DNA of 64,000 nt from Candidatus Poribacteria bacterium. GTDB taxonomy: Bacteria > Poribacteria > WGA-4E > WGA-3G. A program made the position numbers and the translations under genes. The DNA lies in the NCBI GenBank assembly GCA_009841255.1, contig VXMD01000032.1, forward strand, positions 243,923 through 307,922. The letters are read 5' to 3'. Each line of letters begins with the position of its first letter. Position 1 is the first letter of the stretch. Positions 1,326-9,621 of this stretch are shown here, piece by piece. Under the pieces are notes generated by a model that searched no databases, was not told where the DNA came from, and saw only the letters and a program-made list of their open reading frames with translations.

Positions 1326-2969
1326 GTGAAAACTTCCGTTGGCATGTCCTCACTTTTCCTATTCGCTTTTACCTGCTTGATGCTCAGTTGCACCAAAACT
1401 ACGGTTGCCCCGACGCGGCAAGTTTCATCAAGTACGAAACATCTCGATCGGTATATCAACGCCGCACTTAAGAGGGAACGGATTCAACCCTCAAAGACGT
1501 CCGACGATGCCGAGTTTTTGCGCCGGATTCATCTCGATCTGACCGGAAAAATCCCAACGCCTGAAGAGGTCTTGGATTTTCTCAAGGACGGCTCTTCAAA
1601 TAAACGGCAAAGCAAGATTGAGCACTTGTTGGTCAGTGATGCTTACGTTGACTACTGGACAGAGTTATGGGTGAACTGGTTAATCGGTAGGCGTGGAGAT
1701 AGAGACAGTCACCGCATTGGCTTAACGCTTTGGACACGGGAGGCACTGACAAACAATATACCTTATAACCAGTTTGTTCAAGAACTCATCACGGCTGATG
1801 GAGAATTAGGAAACAATGGCGCAGGAAACTATATCCTGCGTTACGAGCGTTCGCCGGCCTCTCTCACCTCACATACTTCGCGTTTGTTCTTAGGGCTTCC
1901 TATGCAGTGTGCCGAGTGCCACGATCATAAATCGGAAATGTGGACCCAGGAGGATTACTACGGTATCGCTGCCTTCTTCACAGGCATCAAGAGTGAGCGA
2001 AAGAAAGACATCGACGGTGTAGATATGGTAGGTAATAAGATGAAAATCAGAAATTTTCTTATTACCAACAAGCCCACAGAGACAATTTGGGTGAAGAGAC
2101 TTGAAAAACAGGTCCGTCCGCATTTCTTAGATAGGACAGAATACAAAGGTTCACTCCTCAAAAAGCGCGAAGCACTCGCACAGTGGATGACGGATAAATC
2201 AAATCCATATTTTAGTCAAGCTATCGTGAATCGCATCTGGAAGCACTTTATGGGGCGCGCCTTCGTCGAACCGATTGATGGATTCGGAGAAGAGAATCCA
2301 CCGACCAACCCTGAACTCTTGAAGTGGCTCGCAAACGATTTCGTCATGCATGGTTACAACTTACAACACCTGATGCGAACAATCCTGAATTCAGAGACCT
2401 ATCAACGCACATCGCAAACCAATGAGAGTAACAAAGACGATCAACACTACTACTCCCATGCCTACGTGAAACCCTTAAGTGCTGAACAGTTCTTCTATTC
2501 TCTGCTGCAAGCCACCGGCTTTGAAAGACTTCAAGAGGTGAGAATGCAAGGTCTCAACAGGCGGAGCGGAGAAGCAAGGAGGGGTATGCTGCGTCAACTT
2601 GAGCAAATGAAACGCGAGCATCTCAAAAAATTCCTCTTTCTACTCGATAATGGCGAGATGGAGGAAATTGAGGCGTTCAATGGAACGATCCCACAAGCAC
2701 TCATGATGATTAATGGGGATCTGGTGAATGATAGCGCGAGTCACGAAGAATACGGAAGTGTTGTGAATTACGTATTAGGAAAATCGCGCGAACCGATGGA
2801 ACGGATGGAGCATATTTATCTTAATGTCCTCTCTCGGTTGCCGACGTCTAAAGAGAAAACCTATTTTCAACGTTATTTAGAGCGGAGTCTTTATCGAAAC
2901 AAGGACTTGGCTTACGAGGACCTCTATTGGGTGTTACTCAACTCAGCCGAATTTTCGCTGAATCATTAA
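1326..2969 (+). CDS. DUF1549/DUF1553 lipoprotein
   Basis: A 547-residue exported protein with a GTG start. A hydrophobic N-terminus ends in LMLSC (Cys22), a lipobox-like site, so it is probably a lipoprotein. The DUF1549 part (about residues 38-215: FLRRIHLDLTGKIPTPEEV) includes the family's CAECHDH segment (Cys195, Cys198, His199), which resembles a heme-binding CxxCH. The DUF1553 part follows (about 270-540: NRIWKHFMGRAFVEPIDGF, LLKWLANDF, YSHAYVKPLSAEQFFYSLLQATG). These domains typically occur together in Planctomycetes, Verrucomicrobia and Poribacteria next to DUF1501 proteins; no DUF1501 partner is here. Function is unknown. It ends 24 nt before the nuclease gene and may be cotranscribed with it. 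Confidence 0.85.
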   Translation: MKTSVGMSSLFLFAFTCLMLSCTKTTVAPTRQVSSSTKHLDRYINAALKRERIQPSKTSDDAEFLRRIHLDLTGKIPTPEEVLDFLKDGSSNKRQSKIEHLLVSDAYVDYWTELWVNWLIGRRGDRDSHRIGLTLWTREALTNNIPYNQFVQELITADGELGNNGAGNYILRYERSPASLTSHTSRLFLGLPMQCAECHDHKSEMWTQEDYYGIAAFFTGIKSERKKDIDGVDMVGNKMKIRNFLITNKPTETIWVKRLEKQVRPHFLDRTEYKGSLLKKREALAQWMTDKSNPYFSQAIVNRIWKHFMGRAFVEPIDGFGEENPPTNPELLKWLANDFVMHGYNLQHLMRTILNSETYQRTSQTNESNKDDQHYYSHAYVKPLSAEQFFYSLLQATGFERLQEVRMQGLNRRSGEARRGMLRQLEQMKREHLKKFLFLLDNGEMEEIEAFNGTIPQALMMINGDLVNDSASHEEYGSVVNYVLGKSREPMERMEHIYLNVLSRLPTSKEKTYFQRYLERSLYRNKDLAYEDLYWVLLNSAEFSLNH

Positions 2970-2993
2970 GGGGAATTATGATAGAGGATAGTT

Positions 2994-3590
2994 ATGGAAA
3001 GACCAGAAGCGATTCATAGATTAACTGATATTATTAATCAAGATCTACGACCGCTTGCGGAGCAGTATGAAGTGCCTGTATTTAGAGAAAACGGGAGAAA
3101 AAATAACATTTGGACGGGTCAGGTCCTTGAAAGGCATTTGGGATTAGATATCAATTCGTCCCGATCGCCTAGCTCTTGGCCTTGGGAACTCAAAGTTATT
3201 TCGTTGAAATTCTTAAAGAACGGAAATTTAACAGTAACAAGAGCAATGTTTATAACAACAATTGACACTTATTATCTCAAGCGAACGGATTTTGAAAACA
3301 GTTACCTACACAGAAAATTGAGACAGACGATTGTTGCTGCAAGAATTTGGGAAAGTAAACGAGAGGAGAGATCGATCCTCCACAGTGTAACAACTTTCGA
3401 TTTAGATGATTCTGAAGTCTATCGTCAAGTCAAAGCGGATTATGACCTCGTTAGAGAAACGATCCAGACACAAGGGCTTTCTGCTGTTACTGGTAAAATG
3501 GGAGTATATATTCAACCCAAAGCGATAGTGCCAGGACATGAAATGGACTCAATAGCATTTTATGCAAGGACGGCTTTCCTAAAAAAATGA
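2994..3590 (+). CDS. MutH/Sau3AI-like endonuclease
   Basis: A 198-residue protein resembling the MutH/Sau3AI nuclease fold. Visible signs are the G-Q-V-L-E...L-G helix (residues 42-50), then W-E-L-K (Glu65-x-Lys67) leading into a strand, the E-x-K part of the PD-(D/E)xK site. In MutH an Asp lies about six residues before the Glu; here that segment is SPSSWPWELK with no Asp, so the first metal ligand must be elsewhere (perhaps Asp52) or the site has changed. No methyltransferase is adjacent, so this is not a recognisable complete type II system. It sits 24 nt after the DUF1549 gene and 167 nt before the Mrr-type gene. Family assignment rests on motifs only. Confidence 0.65.
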   Translation: MERPEAIHRLTDIINQDLRPLAEQYEVPVFRENGRKNNIWTGQVLERHLGLDINSSRSPSSWPWELKVISLKFLKNGNLTVTRAMFITTIDTYYLKRTDFENSYLHRKLRQTIVAARIWESKREERSILHSVTTFDLDDSEVYRQVKADYDLVRETIQTQGLSAVTGKMGVYIQPKAIVPGHEMDSIAFYARTAFLKK

Positions 3591-3638
3591 TTTTACCATG
3601 GACAGATTTGGATATAACGGTTTGTGCATCCATAACCG

Positions 3639-3719
3639 TAGTATAGGAGATTGTTAGCCTGTGCTTTCTAACCCAAACTGTTGGCAAACCATTGTAGCAT
3701 AGGCTGTTAGCCTGTGCAT
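3639..3719. repeat. REP palindromes upstream of mrr (two copies)
   Basis: A degenerate copy (about 3639-3664) and a good copy (3694-3719) of a roughly 26-nt palindromic unit, in reverse orientation relative to the copy at 4621. Core on the opposite strand: GCACAGGCTAACAGCCTA followed by TGCTAC. The same unit recurs at 4621-4646, 5387-5412, 5558-5583 and 5601-5626, around the RAYT gene. Confidence 0.75.
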
Positions 3720-3757
3720 CTGAATCGTCCAAACTTTAGTACGGAAGAGAAAGTCGC

Positions 3758-4612
3758 ATGAAAACGGAAAAAAGAATGGTAGTAGATCCAACTACAGAAG
3801 AAAAATATGAAATAGAACTACCAACTTCTGAAGTGATCAAACAGGAGATCCCTAAACTTGATTATCCATCCGATGGAATCACGATAATAGAAGCAACACG
3901 ACAACTAGAGCAAAAACTTGAACTGTCTGATGAACAAAGAGAGGCAAAGACAAAAAGAGGCAAGCGGTATCTAGGATTTTTTCATTATGAGATAGTTGGC
4001 TCTGAATTTGCCAGACTCTTAAAGGAGGGAAAATTGAAACAACCAGGAGGAAGGGGGAAACCTTATGTTCTCTCTGGCGATATACCTCCACTACCCCCTT
4101 CTGATGGAGATATTGAAGAAATTTATCAAAAGATTAGAGAAAAAGTAGCTGAGGATTTACTTCAGGAAATTAAAGCGAATTCCCCTGCCTTTTTTGAAAA
4201 CCTTGTTATTGATCTTCTTGTTAAAATGGGATATGGTGGCTCAAGAGAAGATGCCGAAACTGTAGGACGTAGTGGTGATGGTGGGATTGATGGTGTTATC
4301 AATCAAGATAGATTGGGGCTTGATGTCGTTTACGTTCAAGCAAAACGATGGGAAAACAATGTGGGGTCACCTGAAATTGCCGGTTTTGCCGGAGCATTAG
4401 CAGGACAAGGGGCTAACAAAGGAATTTTCATTACAACATCCGATTTTACCAAAGCTGCTAAAGACTATGATGCTGCAGGTTTCAAAATTATTCTCATTGA
4501 TGGAAAACGACTTGCCCAGTTGATGATTGATCACAACGTGGGGGTTTCTACAGTGAAAACTTATGAAATCAAGCGAGTCGATTCTGATTATTTTGTTGAG
4601 GACGTTGGGTGA
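3758..4612 (+). CDS. mrr: Mrr-type restriction endonuclease
   Basis: A 284-residue protein with the two-part Mrr layout: an N-terminal winged-helix-like Mrr_N region (about residues 35-110) and a C-terminal Mrr_cat domain (about 145-270). The catalytic signature is visible: GDGGIDG with Asp178, then Q194-A-K196, the D...QxK form of the PD-(D/E)xK fold, followed by GIFITTSDFTKAAKDYDAA. Family members are type IV enzymes that cut modified DNA, so no cognate methylase is needed. REP palindromes flank it, and a deleted remnant of a second copy lies at 5471-5557. The stop overlaps the first codons of the long RAYT reading frame. Codon choice is AT-rich compared with the housekeeping genes, consistent with acquisition. 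Confidence 0.85.
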   Translation: MKTEKRMVVDPTTEEKYEIELPTSEVIKQEIPKLDYPSDGITIIEATRQLEQKLELSDEQREAKTKRGKRYLGFFHYEIVGSEFARLLKEGKLKQPGGRGKPYVLSGDIPPLPPSDGDIEEIYQKIREKVAEDLLQEIKANSPAFFENLVIDLLVKMGYGGSREDAETVGRSGDGGIDGVINQDRLGLDVVYVQAKRWENNVGSPEIAGFAGALAGQGANKGIFITTSDFTKAAKDYDAAGFKIILIDGKRLAQLMIDHNVGVSTVKTYEIKRVDSDYFVEDVG

Positions 4613-4620
4613 TATTATAT

Positions 4621-4646
4621 ATGCACAGGCTGACAGCCTATGCTAC
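4621..4646 (+). repeat. REP palindrome (copy 3)
   Basis: ATGCACAGGCTGACAGCC followed by TATGCTAC, between the mrr stop and the likely RAYT start. The arms AGGCTG/CAGCCT are self-complementary. Confidence 0.75.
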
Positions 4647-4662
4647 AAGGAATACAAGCAAG

Positions 4663-5403
4663 ATGCGTCAAGATGAGCTTAAATCGTTTTACCGTCGTAA
4701 CTTGCCTCATATACAGACACCCGGAGCAACGCTCTTTGTAACATTCCAACTTGCAGGAGCTATACCACAGCATGTATTAGCGCAATGGAAAACGGAAAAA
4801 TTACAATTTGACAAAGAAAAATCAAGACTTCTCAGGTTGCAAAATGATTCCGGGCCCGCGTCAACGCAATATAGACTTTTTGAGGAAAAGAATAAACGCT
4901 TGGAATGGAGGCGACAATGGTTCCGAAAATTTGAAAAAACCTTGGACGGCGCGGAAAGTGGACCTGTATGGCTCAAAGATGATCGGATTGCTAAAGAAAT
5001 AGCGGAAAGTCTGCATTACCGAGATGGAAAAGTGTATTGTCTGGATGCTTATTGCATCATGTCAAATCATGTTCATGTTGTATTTACACCGCTCGCAATG
5101 CAACCTTCCAGAACAGATGCCGTTAATTCGGAGGAAAATACAGCACAAACGAAAGATTTGTGCTACAATACGCTTTCCGTTATTATGCAGTCCCTTAAAG
5201 GGTATACGGCTCGCAAAGCTAATCATCTATTAGGGCGGAGTGGTGCATTCTGGCAGCGGGAAAGTTACGATCACATTGTACGGGATGCAAGCGAATGGCA
5301 ACGGATTATTACTTATGTTCTCAATAATCCCGTAAAGGCGGGTTTAGTGGATACATGGGAAAAATGGCAGTGGAGTTATTGCCGATGTAGCATAACCTGT
5401 TAG
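4663..5403 (+). CDS. REP-associated tyrosine transposase (RAYT, Y1_Tnp)
   Basis: A 246-residue Y1-transposase-family protein. The HUH motif is His136-Val-His138 in MSNHVHVVF, and the single catalytic tyrosine is Tyr181 in SLKGYTARKAN. The C-terminal hallmark W-Q-R-E-S-Y-D-H...YVLNNPVKAGL is complete, so the enzyme looks intact. RAYTs process REP palindromes as single-stranded DNA. Palindromes here flank the gene on both sides, and the downstream copy (5387-5412) contains the RAYT stop codon. The reading frame is open back to 4609, but the ATG at 4663 gives the family's usual N-terminus (RRNLPHIQTPGATLFVTFQL), and the region before it is the REP itself. Confidence 0.85.
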   Translation: MRQDELKSFYRRNLPHIQTPGATLFVTFQLAGAIPQHVLAQWKTEKLQFDKEKSRLLRLQNDSGPASTQYRLFEEKNKRLEWRRQWFRKFEKTLDGAESGPVWLKDDRIAKEIAESLHYRDGKVYCLDAYCIMSNHVHVVFTPLAMQPSRTDAVNSEENTAQTKDLCYNTLSVIMQSLKGYTARKANHLLGRSGAFWQRESYDHIVRDASEWQRIITYVLNNPVKAGLVDTWEKWQWSYCRCSITC

Positions 5404-5412
5404 GTTGTGCAA
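5387..5412 (-). repeat. REP palindrome overlapping the RAYT stop codon (copy 4)
   Basis: GTAGCATAACCTGTTAGGTTG followed by TGCAA: the stem pair AACCT/AGGTT is kept although the bases differ from the other copies (compensatory change). The TAG at 5401-5403 inside the loop/stem is the RAYT stop. Confidence 0.7.
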
Positions 5413-5470
5413 CCTATTACAGAAACTGTGAGATCGGACTAAACAGCATCTAACATTCTTAATATTTTCT

Positions 5471-5557
5471 TCTAAGGAGGAAGGTCGTACGAAAAGAGAA
5501 ACAAGAATGGCAGTAGATCGAACTATATGAAATCAAGCGAGTCAATTCTGATTATAT
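5471..5557 (+). pseudogene. Internally deleted mrr remnant
   Basis: Bases 5471-5525 match the start region of the mrr gene (3741-3796: GGAAGAGAAAGTCG, AAAAGAATGG, AGTAGATC). They join directly to a match of the mrr 3' end (4564-4590: TGAAATCAAGCGAGTC, ATTCTGATTAT). Both parental breakpoints contain TATGAAAT, which suggests deletion across a short homology. The start ATG has become ACG. What is left is about 85 bp and followed, as in the intact copy, by a REP palindrome. Confidence 0.7.
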
Positions 5558-5626
5558 ATGCACAGCCTAACAGGCTATGCTACGGAAGAAGGCACAAGAA
5601 ACGCACAGGCTAACAACCTATGCTAC
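5558..5626 (+). repeat. REP palindromes downstream of RAYT (copies 5 and 6)
   Basis: Copy 5 (5558-5583) and copy 6 (5601-5626) have the same orientation as copy 3. Copy 5 has compensating stem changes (AGCCTAACAGGCT against AGGCTGACAGCCT). Together with the copies upstream they form a BIME-like array around the transposase gene. Confidence 0.75.
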
Positions 5627-5656
5627 ATGAAATACAACCAAAAGGAGAATCCTATT

Positions 5657-6379
5657 ATGAACAGCCGTAACCTGTTCATTGCTATTTGCATAATTACACT
5701 CGGCATTGCCGCACTTGCGATGTCGCAAACCTATTTTGAGGATAATTTCGATGACCCGAAAGAATCCGAAAACAAATGGGTCGCCCTCTTCGGGGACTGG
5801 GAACTCAAGGACGATGAATACCATCAACTCCAAAATTCCCCTAACTGTATGAGTGTCGTCGCAGATGAATTCTGGGAGGACGACTGGAACGAATACACCT
5901 TCGAGGTCCGTGGGAGTAAAATCAGTGGTGCTGAAGGATTCCTGATTATGTTCCGGTGCCAAGGTTTGATGCAAGCGCGCGGACAAGCACTTGAAGATCA
6001 TCCACCGCGTATGGAGAAACTCAAACCCTCCTTGGAATACTGGTGGAACCTCGGTGGCTGGGGAAATACACGCTCACAGGTTGAATCCTGGGGCGGCAAA
6101 GGCGGTGCCAATAGTGCTGACACTATTGATGAGAAGGATTGGTATGACATCAAGATTGTCAATACACCCGATAGTTACACCGTCATTCTCAATGGTAAAG
6201 AGGTCGCAAAGGTGGACGATGATACCGAAAAGGGTGTAGGGAGAATCGGCTTAGCAACGTGGAGCACGGTCGCCAAATATGACGATGTCGTCGTTTACGG
6301 ACCTGATGGTCCCTCGTTACCAGTTGATGCCAAGAGCAAACTTGCGACGACTTGGGCACATCTTAAATCCGTAAAGTAG
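5657..6379 (+). CDS. Secreted ConA-like (3-keto-disaccharide hydrolase/DUF1080-type fold) protein
   Basis: A 240-residue exported protein. The ATG at 5657 follows AAAGGAGAAT and begins a signal peptide (NLFIAICIITLGIAALAMS). The mature part starts YFEDNFDDP and shows a jelly-roll pattern: WELKDDEYHQ, YTFEVRGSKISGAEGFLIMFR, WYDIKIVNTPDSYTVILNGKEV, GRIGLATWSTVAKYDDVVV. This is the concanavalin-like layout of LamG/DUF1080 proteins, which often bind or cleave glycans. No catalytic residues can be assigned. The frame is open upstream to 5558, but that extension is REP sequence and lacks a signal peptide. Confidence 0.7.
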   Translation: MNSRNLFIAICIITLGIAALAMSQTYFEDNFDDPKESENKWVALFGDWELKDDEYHQLQNSPNCMSVVADEFWEDDWNEYTFEVRGSKISGAEGFLIMFRCQGLMQARGQALEDHPPRMEKLKPSLEYWWNLGGWGNTRSQVESWGGKGGANSADTIDEKDWYDIKIVNTPDSYTVILNGKEVAKVDDDTEKGVGRIGLATWSTVAKYDDVVVYGPDGPSLPVDAKSKLATTWAHLKSVK

Positions 6380-6488: not shown

Positions 6489-8438
6489 ATGAGAAGCATG
6501 CCAAGATATTCTCCAACCCAATTCCCCATGCCTACCTACCAAACAGTCACCTCAACACCACACGGACGGATCGGTGAACTCAGACTGAGCACTAACAAGA
6601 GAAAGCTTGAAACGCCAATGTTATACCCGGTCATTAATTTTCTAACGGGTACGAGTACGCGTGGGGGTGGCGTCTGGAAATATATCCTAAACATTCTGAT
6701 GCAGCGACAGACACCGATGCTGTCTCAGATTTTACATTTTCTCGATTTCCCGATCACTGGACGCTACCTTGACAATTGGCGTGGAAAGTCAATGCGAGAG
6801 CATTATTGTGAACAGAATGGCGTGTATGAAGGGGCCCTTTTTTTGGATTCCGGTGGTTTCAAACTCCTGTACAACACCGGTATGGATCTGCAGGAATTTG
6901 GAATCCACAAGGAAACGGAGGCCGAGGATATCCTCAATCTACAGTTAGGTTTTGAGGGCGATATCGTCGCCTCTTTGGATTATCCACTCCCACCCAACTT
7001 AGCTCGTCCGGAAGCCGAAGAACGGATGAAACAGAGTCTCGCAAACGCCGTTCGAGTGGCAGAACGCTTGACAACAGACACAAGCGACATGCGAACGGTG
7101 CCTTATCTTTATACCTGCTGCCATGGTCAATCTGGAGAGGACATCTCAAATTATACGAGCCAACTCTTCGACCAAGTCGGCGGCATACTACCCTCATTCG
7201 GGTTAGCCGTTGGGTCACTTGTGCCTTTACGCGGTAGGGACGATTCGGAAGTCATGGAACTGGTTAACGGGGTCATCCAAGCAATCCCAGAGAACCGGCG
7301 GGGGACGACGCCTATTCACGCCTTCGGTGTTTCCGGCGTTCTCACACCACTCCTCGCTTATATCGGTGTTGATACATTTGATAGTTCCGGCTATATTCAT
7401 ACATCCCGGAGTCTCACATATTCACAACCGCACACCCAGAAGAAACTCAGGATTATGGAGATGGATGAGACAGACTGCGACTGCTACATCTGTGAGGCAT
7501 ATCCGCTCCAGGAAATTCAGCAGGCGTTCATGGATAAACAGAGTTATAGAGCCACTTCCACGGGTAAGTTTAAGAGTGAGTACTATGCCGCTATTGGGCT
7601 TCACAATTTCCAGACGGAAGCCGATATTCTTGATGAGATGCGGACCGCAATCGCGGCAGACGATGCGCTTGAAGGTTTAGTCCAACACCTTGCTAAATAT
7701 CAGAACTTTCGAGGGTTGCGGCGGGCAACAGCATGGCTCTCTGAAAACGATAAGACGCTCGCAGCCCGATTGGCTCGAACGTTAATTCAGACGCCCATAC
7801 CTAAGAAAACAAAGCACCCACAGCAGAATTTAAATCAATTGGAACTCTTTCCGTCCGGTTCCGCGAAAACTGAGAACAACATCCAAACTATCGCAGGAGA
7901 TATGAACTCGCAAACAGTCTCACTGGCATATACCCCTGATGACTTTCGAGTTCCGTGTGATTATAAGCCTCCTGATGGAAAAGAAATTCTCCTCGCGATT
8001 CCGTGTGCTGGAAAGAAACCTTACTCACTATCCCGTACGCATACGATGATCACAAACAGACTTCAAACTGCTTTTGGGGAAGGACAGGAACGCATCCACA
8101 AAATAACACTCTCTGGACTTTACGGTCCTGTTCCTGAAGAATTTGAGACAGAGGAGGCCGTCATCCGCTACGATTTCCAACTCTCCCCTAAGCACACTGC
8201 TCAAATTGAACAGTGTGCAACGCGTTTGGTCGACTATCTACAGAAATATAGCGATAGTTATACGCTTAAAATAGGATACGCCACAAGTAGAGCCTACAGG
8301 GCGGTCCTTAGGCTCGCAGAGGAGCGGCTCCCGACGTTCATCTTGTTGCCGAAAGACCTTAGACAGAAACGCTTATCCGAATTCTTCAGGCATACGAACT
8401 TAGATGCTTTGGTTGAAGTCATACAAGACAAATTATAG
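6489..8438 (+). CDS. tRNA-guanine transglycosylase domain fused to ArcS-like domain
   Basis: A 649-residue two-domain protein. The N-terminal part (about 45-400) is a TGT fold: D120-S-G-G-F like the TGT DSGGF loop, GVDTFDSS with Asp298 at the place of the TGT nucleophile, and a zinc site C330-x-C332-x2-C335 with His372. The C-terminal part (about 485-640) contains PCAGKKPYSLSRTH (505-518), an exact match to the archaeosine synthase signature PCX3KPYX2SX2H, followed by LSGLYGPVPEEFE and YDFQL. TGT enzymes exchange guanine for 7-deazaguanines in tRNA or, in DpdA relatives, in DNA. ArcS turns bound preQ0 into archaeosine in archaea. Whether this protein acts on tRNA or DNA cannot be told. The gene ends 13 nt before the alcohol dehydrogenase. 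An internal ATG at 6618 is an alternative start. Confidence 0.75.
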   Translation: MRSMPRYSPTQFPMPTYQTVTSTPHGRIGELRLSTNKRKLETPMLYPVINFLTGTSTRGGGVWKYILNILMQRQTPMLSQILHFLDFPITGRYLDNWRGKSMREHYCEQNGVYEGALFLDSGGFKLLYNTGMDLQEFGIHKETEAEDILNLQLGFEGDIVASLDYPLPPNLARPEAEERMKQSLANAVRVAERLTTDTSDMRTVPYLYTCCHGQSGEDISNYTSQLFDQVGGILPSFGLAVGSLVPLRGRDDSEVMELVNGVIQAIPENRRGTTPIHAFGVSGVLTPLLAYIGVDTFDSSGYIHTSRSLTYSQPHTQKKLRIMEMDETDCDCYICEAYPLQEIQQAFMDKQSYRATSTGKFKSEYYAAIGLHNFQTEADILDEMRTAIAADDALEGLVQHLAKYQNFRGLRRATAWLSENDKTLAARLARTLIQTPIPKKTKHPQQNLNQLELFPSGSAKTENNIQTIAGDMNSQTVSLAYTPDDFRVPCDYKPPDGKEILLAIPCAGKKPYSLSRTHTMITNRLQTAFGEGQERIHKITLSGLYGPVPEEFETEEAVIRYDFQLSPKHTAQIEQCATRLVDYLQKYSDSYTLKIGYATSRAYRAVLRLAEERLPTFILLPKDLRQKRLSEFFRHTNLDALVEVIQDKL

Positions 8439-8451
8439 GAACTGACAACAG

Positions 8452-9621
8452 ATGCTAAACTATTTTTTACCCCCGCAAATTGAATTTGGCGACGGGGCAA
8501 TCCAAAACTTAGGTGAACATGTCAAGGCGTTTGATGGCAAAAAACCGTTCTTAGTGAGCGATGCGGGTGTTATCAACGCCGGTATCCTCGCGAAAGCGAC
8601 AGATGCCTTGGAGGCAAGCGGCTTGTCGTCCGCCACGTATTCTGATATCGAACCGAATCCTACAGACCTCAGTGTTACAGCGGGTGTAGAAGTCTACAAA
8701 GCCGAGGCGTGTGATGTCGTCATTGCTGTCGGAGGCGGAAGCGTGATGGATGCCGCCAAAGCCATTCGTCTCTTGACGACCCACGAACCCTCGCTGGAAC
8801 CCTATTATGCTGATGTTGGCGGTGTCGAGCAAATCCGAGCAGATATGCCACCGCTCATATGCGTACCGACGACTGCCGGCACGGGCAGCGAGGTGTCACA
8901 AGGTTCAATCATTACGGATACATCTTTACAGACAACCGATCGATGGCGGAAGCGGGCAATCGTTACACCCTTCAACATGTCAAACATCGCACTCCTTGAT
9001 CCGGGAATAACCCTCGGCATGCCCCCCGCACTTACTGCAGCGACAGGTATGGATGCCATTACACACGGTATTGAGGCGTATGTGGCAACGAAGTACCATC
9101 CGATCGCTGAGGGGGTTGCCCTACAGGCACTCAGAATGTTGAGCGCGAATATCCGGCAGGTCTATCACAACGGTGAAGATGTAACCGCACGGGGTGAAAT
9201 GCTTCTCGGATCCTGCATGGCGGCATTTTCGTTCCAGAAGGGGCTCGGCGCGGTCCATTCACTCGCACATCAACTCTCGACAGATGCCCCTATTCCGCAC
9301 GGTATAGCGAACGCTATTCTCCTCCCACCTGTCATGGAATTCAACTTTTCTCAGGCGAGTGAGAAATACGCCGAAATCGCGCGCGCCTTAGGTATAGACA
9401 CAAGTAACATGGACATTGAGGAAGCGGGACACGCTGCTATTGACAAAATCCGGACGTACAACACGGAGTTGAATATGCCTACAGGACTCGGGGATGCTGG
9501 TTTGGACCGGGGAAAGATTCCGAAACTCGGAGCAGATGCCATGCTCGATCATTGTCACAAGTTCAATCCGAGGGTGTGTAGGGAAGCAGATATGGTGGCG
9601 TTGTTTGAGGCAGCGTTCTAA
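8452..9621 (+). CDS. Iron-containing alcohol dehydrogenase
   Basis: A 389-residue group III metal-dependent alcohol dehydrogenase. Signs: the N-terminal PPQIEFGDGAIQNLGEHV, the NAD-binding GGGSVMDAAKAI (about residues 96-107), the TTAGTGSE loop, and metal-binding histidines in GMDAITHGIEAY and VHSLAHQLSTDAPIPHGIANAILLP. The length is normal. The substrate is not predictable; relatives act on butanol, lactaldehyde, propanediol or maleylacetate. The stop overlaps by 3 nt the stop of the convergent minus-strand gene, so transcription from both sides meets here. Confidence 0.9.
   Translation: MLNYFLPPQIEFGDGAIQNLGEHVKAFDGKKPFLVSDAGVINAGILAKATDALEASGLSSATYSDIEPNPTDLSVTAGVEVYKAEACDVVIAVGGGSVMDAAKAIRLLTTHEPSLEPYYADVGGVEQIRADMPPLICVPTTAGTGSEVSQGSIITDTSLQTTDRWRKRAIVTPFNMSNIALLDPGITLGMPPALTAATGMDAITHGIEAYVATKYHPIAEGVALQALRMLSANIRQVYHNGEDVTARGEMLLGSCMAAFSFQKGLGAVHSLAHQLSTDAPIPHGIANAILLPPVMEFNFSQASEKYAEIARALGIDTSNMDIEEAGHAAIDKIRTYNTELNMPTGLGDAGLDRGKIPKLGADAMLDHCHKFNPRVCREADMVALFEAAF

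Follow-up and report, generated by a model that had tools for sequence, protein, structure and literature searches.

The gene at positions 6489..8438 of the forward strand raises the question of whether a single bacterial polypeptide can both place a 7-deazaguanine base in a polynucleotide and convert it there, and whether that polynucleotide would be tRNA or DNA. The gene lies in a stretch of 64,000 nucleotides from Candidatus Poribacteria bacterium, which was analysed as a whole and is referred to below as the window. What is confirmed is that the product, P0001, joins an intact TGT site and an ArcS-type catalytic core on one chain, in a bacterium of the sponge-symbiont type. The features on which this statement rests are as follows.

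6489..8438, + strand: open reading frame for the TGT-DUF5591 (ArcS core) fusion protein P0001, 649 aa.
6567..7697, + strand: TGT domain, residues 27-403 (Pfam PF01702, E 6.2e-19; best PDB match 1iq8).
6846..6848, + strand: codon for D120 in DSGGF, the first catalytic Asp (invariant in 21 homologs and three haloarchaeal fusions).
7380..7382, + strand: codon for D298, the predicted nucleophile (unchanged in every fusion and in every aligned row of DpdA, Tgt and TgtA).
7476..7493, + strand: C330-x-C332-x2-C335, three zinc ligands (invariant in all fusions).
7602..7604, + strand: codon for H372, the fourth zinc ligand (invariant).
7779..7919, + strand: low-constraint linker, residues 431-477 (dN/dS 0.25-0.5; pLDDT <50 at 436-475).
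7947..8324, + strand: DUF5591 / ArcS core domain, residues 487-612 (Pfam PF17884, E 2.9e-13; NCBIfam ArcS, 71 bits).
8001..8042, + strand: PCAGKKPYSLSRTH, the PCX3KPYX2SX2H motif, residues 505-518 (unchanged in 21 homologs but for the final His of one).

The complete TGT site that had been read from the sequence alone, with D120 in DSGGF, D298, the C-x-C-x2-C cysteines and H372, was found with every residue at its position, and D164, the second catalytic Asp, is also kept in P0001. The exact PCX3KPYX2SX2H motif claimed for the second half was likewise located at residues 505-518, inside the DUF5591 match. In 16 poribacterial orthologs (47-89% identity), D120, D164, D298, C330, C332, C335, H372 and the residues of the motif are invariant. 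In an alignment of 21 homologs (35-88% identity) that spans four phyla (Poribacteria, Cyanobacteria, Chloroflexota and a Planctomycetes MAG), the Asp and zinc residues and P505, C506, K510, P511, Y512 and S515 are invariant, and H518 is replaced in a single row, that of Thermosporothrix (L085). The loss of an Asp or a zinc ligand, which the sequence-only reading had named as evidence that would speak against it, is seen in none of the 21, and three haloarchaeal fusions keep the same residues. P0001 was rejected as a non-catalytic TGT paralogue because every catalytic residue is kept. The functions assigned here to single residues are putative and follow those of known TGT and ArcS enzymes.

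The AlphaFold model of P0001 (pLDDT 81.6), a check proposed with the sequence-only reading, has the TGT fold, and the structure search returned the archaeosine TGT 1iq8 first (E 7e-20), followed by the Zymomonas TGT. Pairwise dN/dS is 0.05-0.09 in the TGT half and 0.06-0.11 in the DUF5591 half; against the 0.25-0.5 of the disordered linker, these values place both halves under strong purifying selection, and both are thus maintained. Chance occurrence of PCX3KPYX2SX2H was rejected by a six-frame translation of ~3.1 million codons: apart from the fusion genes, a single short stretch, out of frame, contained the motif. A PUA domain was not detected in P0001, since only TGT and DUF5591 were matched among Pfam models up to E 10, a search in which a divergent PUA could be missed.

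Comparison with profile models, also proposed earlier, upheld the two domains but not membership of a described family. The TGT and DUF5591 matches are above the Pfam cut-offs (68.7 bits against 26.3 for PF01702 and 50.3 bits against 26 for PF17884), as is the match to the TGT superfamily model TIGR00449 (66.2 bits, cut-off 47.6). The best-scoring TGT family is ArcTGT / TgtA (TIGR00432), with 79.7 bits against an equivalog cut-off of 350; the score for ArcS (NF040592) is 71 bits, against a full-length equivalog cut-off of 440, and P0001 was therefore rejected as a typical archaeal ArcS or TgtA. The PADLOC DpdA models gave no match to P0001 at E 1e-3. The genome encodes three TGT proteins. One is a true Q-type Tgt (547 bits), another is the fusion, and the third, DpdA-like and 397 aa long, matches PADLOC DpdA weakly (6e-6). 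Since Q34 has a Tgt of its own in this genome, the Q enzyme is not the fusion, and the score of the fusion with the queuosine Tgt model (TIGR00430, 31.9 bits, equivalog cut-off 306.75) likewise led to its rejection as a simple bacterial Tgt. A tree of the TGT halves, built by maximum likelihood, unites the bacterial fusions in a single clade (100/100), separate from DpdA-like proteins and Q Tgt, and the haloarchaeal fusions are their probable sister (85/77, a weak value). TgtA is included in this tree as a fragment only and deep branches among the TGT clades are weak; the deeper joins are unsafe because the branches are long. The L003-type DpdA of Poribacteria lacks the CxCx2C zinc cysteines that are seen in the aligned fusions.

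Two archaeal enzymes most resemble the halves of P0001. ArcS has a TGT-type domain followed by DUF5591, the same order as in P0001. The two further share the exact PCX3KPYX2SX2H motif, the DUF5591 core and the expected substrate, preQ0 already present in a polynucleotide, whereas P0001 differs in a TGT half with all catalytic residues, in the missing PUA match, in having no RaSEA partner and in its bacterial host. ArcTGT, to which ArcS is homologous (PMC11298593), is like P0001 in its catalytic Asp residues and zinc site and is the best match by both score and structure (1iq8), but the C-terminal part of P0001 is an ArcS core and not a set of PUA-type modules.

The substrate of such an enzyme is likely available, because QueC, QueF and FolE, for which a genome search had been suggested, are all encoded; this judgement covers these three proteins. 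Co-occurrence with QueC is uninformative, since QueC is present in all 85 genomes of the phylum. RaSEA was not found above cut-off in any poribacterial fusion genome or in any of the 11 other fusion genomes, and only weak radical-SAM matches (~22 bits) were obtained, in G005 and G015. In one genome of the class that lacks the fusion (G003; L055, G003:C239:805-1743), RaSEA was matched with 213 bits, above cut-off; this is either a true bacterial RaSEA or archaeal contamination. The ArcS of T. kodakarensis must be in complex with RaSEA to transfer lysine to preQ0, after which RaSEA makes archaeosine; without RaSEA, the purified ArcS is inactive (PMC11298593). Canonical archaeosine synthesis is therefore unlikely in the fusion genomes. 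The archaeosine-like modification suggested from the sequence alone is thus retained in part: a bacterial TGT with an ArcS-type core, a conserved family and preQ0-pathway genes stand behind it, but archaeosine itself does not fit the absence of RaSEA and of a detectable PUA domain. Direct amidine formation is possible, since the ArcS of M. jannaschii accepts NH4+, Asn or Gln (cited in PMC11298593). The candidate products are an amide, an amidine or a lysine adduct, among which the sequence does not distinguish.

A link between the ArcS core and the Dpd system is suggested by DUF6884, which is a DpdC-type domain (PMC11888242). When the DUF6884 protein that accompanies the host's DpdA-like TGT was compared by hhalign, DUF5591 aligned with it along its length (E 4.7e-5, probability 68%), and the alignment pairs PCxxKP with SCSxRK and LSGLYGPVP with LSAAYGLIP. 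In the Dpd system, DpdC hydrolyses dPreQ0 to dADG (PMC12839542). The proposed logic of P0001, preQ0 insertion followed by nitrile conversion, would be that of DpdA plus DpdC, and the likeness extends to the homology of DUF5591 and DUF6884 and to the DpdJ-like helicases that adjoin relatives of the fusion. P0001 differs from Dpd in that both steps would take place on one chain, in belonging to another TGT clade and in carrying an ArcS-type and not a DpdC-type motif.

Other combinations of the same kinds of domain were encountered. The genome that encodes P0001 (G000) has a second candidate base-modification cassette (L053:9040-11899, contig C74), which comprises a BrxC/D-like ATPase, DUF6884 and the 397-aa DpdA-like TGT, a protein lacking the zinc cysteines. 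In two poribacterial genomes (L092:8774-10537 and L093:8521-10446) the order of the domains is reversed, as DUF6884-TGT fusions, that of L092 directly after NurA and HerA genes. A Halorientalis plasmid (L096:4940-7843) encodes a 967-aa protein with a weak TGT match and a C-terminal DUF6884; its gene adjoins queC, folE, queE and a queD-like gene, and a DpdA-like TGT and a BREX-type ATPase lie downstream. From the reverse-order and Halorientalis fusions, it appears that a transglycosylase and a nitrile-converting domain have been joined more than once, probably, and such repeated joining supports coupled chemistry on one polymer.

Of the 85 genomes examined in the phylum, 17 to 18 carry the fusion and the others lack it. 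The copy in G084 (L042:7988-9936) is split by an in-frame TAG, which is likely a recent loss, and that in G017 is in pieces. Homologs occur in cyanobacteria (Microseira, Coleofasciculus, Planktothrix, Nostoc and others), in Chloroflexota (Thermogemmatispora, Thermosporothrix and one MAG), in one Kuenenia MAG of the Planctomycetes and, as three full-length relatives, on two haloarchaeal plasmids, one of which carries two. No fusion homolog was found in viral contigs, and two unannotated phage records share only the TGT part, at 25% identity; a phage origin of the fusion is accordingly without support. No earlier account of a bacterial defence-associated fusion family was found in the literature searched, the coverage of which was incomplete.

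Outside Poribacteria, the relatives mostly adjoin restriction or anti-phage genes. In six cyanobacterial loci (L078, L080, L081, L089, L090 and, with split ORFs, L082), the fusion is followed downstream by GmrSD_N-like and HEPN genes; at L080, the locus checked with Pfam and PADLOC, the matches are GmrSD_N (1e-24), NsnA (2e-61) and HEPN_MAE_28990 (9e-52). The fusion, together with this conserved GmrSD_N/NsnA-like and HEPN_MAE_28990 cassette, may constitute a defence system of its own in which base modification is one arm. A DpdJ-like helicase adjoins the fusion in Coleofasciculus (L079, 8.5e-36) and Thermogemmatispora (L083, 5.8e-64), alone among the bacterial loci. The fusion locus of the Chloroflexi MAG contains DrmB and DrmA of DISARM, that of Thermosporothrix (L085) contains NurA and HerA, and in the Kuenenia MAG an N6/N4 DNA methylase lies 2 kb from the fusion. 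BREX-Related Capture also has a TGT with a HerA translocase, like the Thermosporothrix locus and poribacterial L092, but it has no DpdC-like step (PMC12839542). In the general survey of these loci, no PglZ or BrxC-type gene came to notice.

On the Natrinema plasmid, the fusion is followed by a Druantia/ARMADA-like (DruE) helicase and a DpdJ-like helicase, and the Haladaptatus plasmid carries a DpdJ-like helicase, PLD, DUF6884, a DpdA-like TGT and two fusions. BRIGADE has been reported only from halophilic archaea and combines paired ARMADA/Druantia-like YprA and Dpd-like helicases with a predicted 7-deazaguanine cluster (PMC12458937); neither TGT nor ArcS is mentioned in the main text of that paper (Bell et al., 2025). 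The haloarchaeal plasmid clusters fit a BRIGADE-like arrangement, since their fusions are accompanied by DpdJ-like helicases, in Natrinema also by the ARMADA/Druantia-like YprA helicase, and helicases of both BRIGADE types (ARMADA-like and Dpd-like) were found at L095. The bacterial fusion loci differ in that the paired helicases appear to be missing. None was seen beside the poribacterial gene, and a search of Poribacteria for a DpdJ-like helicase, run without a positive control, found none.

In the poribacterial genus, the fusion lies beside a hotspot of restriction-modification (R-M) genes, the parts of which in the window are as follows.

1326..2969, + strand: DUF1549/DUF1553 gene, which bounds the R-M hotspot on its outer side (Pfam; hotspot map).
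2994..3590, + strand: MutH/MvaI-like restriction endonuclease of the hotspot (Pfam MutH, 1.1e-5; the only MutH in the genome).
3758..4612, + strand: Mrr-type restriction endonuclease of the hotspot (Pfam Mrr_cat, 4.2e-38).
4609..5403, + strand: IS200/REP-like Y1 transposase, which accompanies the Mrr gene (a match to Pfam Y1_Tnp of 3.5e-4, below cut-off).
5558..6379, + strand: DUF1080-like gene of the 3-keto-disaccharide hydrolase family, flanking the fusion slot on the left (Pfam; hotspot map).
8452..9621, + strand: iron-containing alcohol dehydrogenase (Fe-ADH), a core gene and right neighbour of the fusion slot (Pfam; 36 of 38 genus genomes).

When the region was compared across 36 genomes (loci L128-L163), two slots emerged. 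The slot from DUF1549/1553 to DUF1080 holds R-M genes in 18 genomes, some of them on incomplete contigs, and is otherwise empty or nearly so; its contents are a DNA methylase with one to three MutH/MvaI-like nucleases, or Mrr with the Y1 transposase, or a PD-(D/E)XK nuclease. In 6 genomes the fusion occupies the slot from DUF1080 to Fe-ADH, which in most others is a gap of at most ~180 bp. In the window, the MutH-like, Mrr and Y1 genes occupy the first slot and the fusion the second. The first slot (window 2969-5558) turns over rapidly, and in several genomes a single DNA methylase is followed by two or three MutH/MvaI-like nucleases in tandem; in G000, G054 and G057, the MutH-like nuclease (window 2994-3590) is solitary, without the methylase that accompanies it elsewhere.

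Among fusion genomes, only G000 and G016 have a MutH gene, which in both lies <4 kb from the fusion; the probability of such closeness by position alone is ~0.0014 and 0.0017, in a test chosen after the data had been seen. An N6/N4 MTase and MutH adjoin the fusion in G016, and D12 methylases lie directly upstream of it in G029 and G017, against ~0.06 expected, again in a test chosen after seeing the data. Beside other poribacterial copies are a PLD-SNF2 helicase (L040 and L041) or a DNA methylase (L044 and L046), and an HsdR gene lies within 2 kb of the L045 fusion. No R-M gene was found beside the fusion in 4 of the 6 fusion-carrying genus members, one of which has the stop-broken copy, and no DpdB/DpdC or dpdD-K restriction operon gene lies beside the fusion in the window.

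Taken with the known enzymes, these results suggest, with a little more belief than doubt, that P0001 writes a 7-deazaguanine mark with a single chain and is functionally analogous to DpdA plus DpdC, its target being DNA. In the mechanism proposed, of which the residue roles, step order, product, DNA substrate and defence role in this host are all putative, the TGT domain would exchange a guanine in a polynucleotide for preQ0, with D298 as nucleophile, D120 handling the base and the zinc serving a structural role. C506 of the ArcS-type core would then attack the nitrile of the inserted preQ0, which would be converted without RaSEA, most simply by hydrolysis to an amide (ADG-like) or by amidation to an amidine (G+-like). 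The substrate would most likely be DNA, and the mark would serve self/non-self discrimination in Dpd-like or R-M-like defence loci. A DNA mark is considered more likely than archaeosine in tRNA because the relatives outside Poribacteria lie mostly beside restriction or anti-phage genes; the DpdA-like DNA reading, a side remark of the sequence-only account, is thus favoured by the neighbourhoods in other phyla and by the R-M hotspot in the genus.

The main rival, although rather unlikely, is that the target is tRNA or another RNA, in which preQ0 would be inserted at a position such as G15 and converted by the ArcS half to an archaeosine-like or preQ0-Lys/ADG nucleoside, the R-M neighbours being incidental. 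It ranks first among the alternatives because the TGT half resembles the archaeal tRNA TGT, in score (79.7 bits for TgtA) and structure, and has the complete zinc site. In Poribacteria the gene also adjoins the core Fe-ADH, a plain metabolic gene. The TgtA score, the zinc site and the Fe-ADH neighbour count against the DNA reading too, as do the unmatched PADLOC DpdA models, the four genus members with no R-M gene beside the fusion and the poribacterial search, run without a positive control, that yielded no DpdJ-like helicase. ArcS proper acts on preQ0 in tRNA (PMC11298593), and identities within Poribacteria drop as the taxa become more distant, a pattern typical of a gene that is old and has been inherited vertically. 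However, RaSEA is absent and no PUA domain was found, defence contexts recur in other phyla, and the patchy occurrence of the gene (about 17 of 85 genomes), together with its broken G084 copy, is unlike a housekeeping tRNA modification.

It is improbable, on present reckoning, that the ArcS half does no more than attach lysine or another amine to preQ0 in DNA or RNA, leaving a preQ0-lysine adduct as the mark. We know of no report of such an adduct in DNA. The motif is of the ArcS and not the DUF6884 type, T. kodakarensis ArcS is a lysine transferase, and RaSEA, which would cleave the adduct, is absent; but that enzyme, when purified, transfers lysine only in complex with RaSEA (PMC11298593), and the lysine-binding residues are not defined, so that specificity is not readable from sequence. 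That P0001 is a relic or accessory protein with no present role, hitch-hiking in a defence hotspot, is very improbable: the in-frame TAG in G084 and the many genomes lacking the fusion would suit it, but dN/dS near 0.05-0.1 in both domains and the invariant active sites indicate recent function in the lineages that keep the gene.

If P0001 modifies DNA, as the favoured reading holds, host-encoded 7-deazaguanine marking would extend beyond the DpdA/DpdC systems, with both chemical steps on one chain, and ArcS chemistry would be linked to defence loci in several phyla. A wider suggestion, tentative and somewhat doubtful, is that one bacterial polypeptide both inserts preQ0 into the DNA of its own cell and turns it into an archaeosine-like, ADG-like or preQ0-lysine base without RaSEA, as a self-label common to the otherwise unrelated GmrSD/HEPN, DpdJ, DISARM and BRIGADE effectors. 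If tRNA is the target, the product would be, to our knowledge, the first archaeosine-like tRNA nucleoside in bacteria. With either target, the fusion bears on what the ArcS core does without RaSEA.
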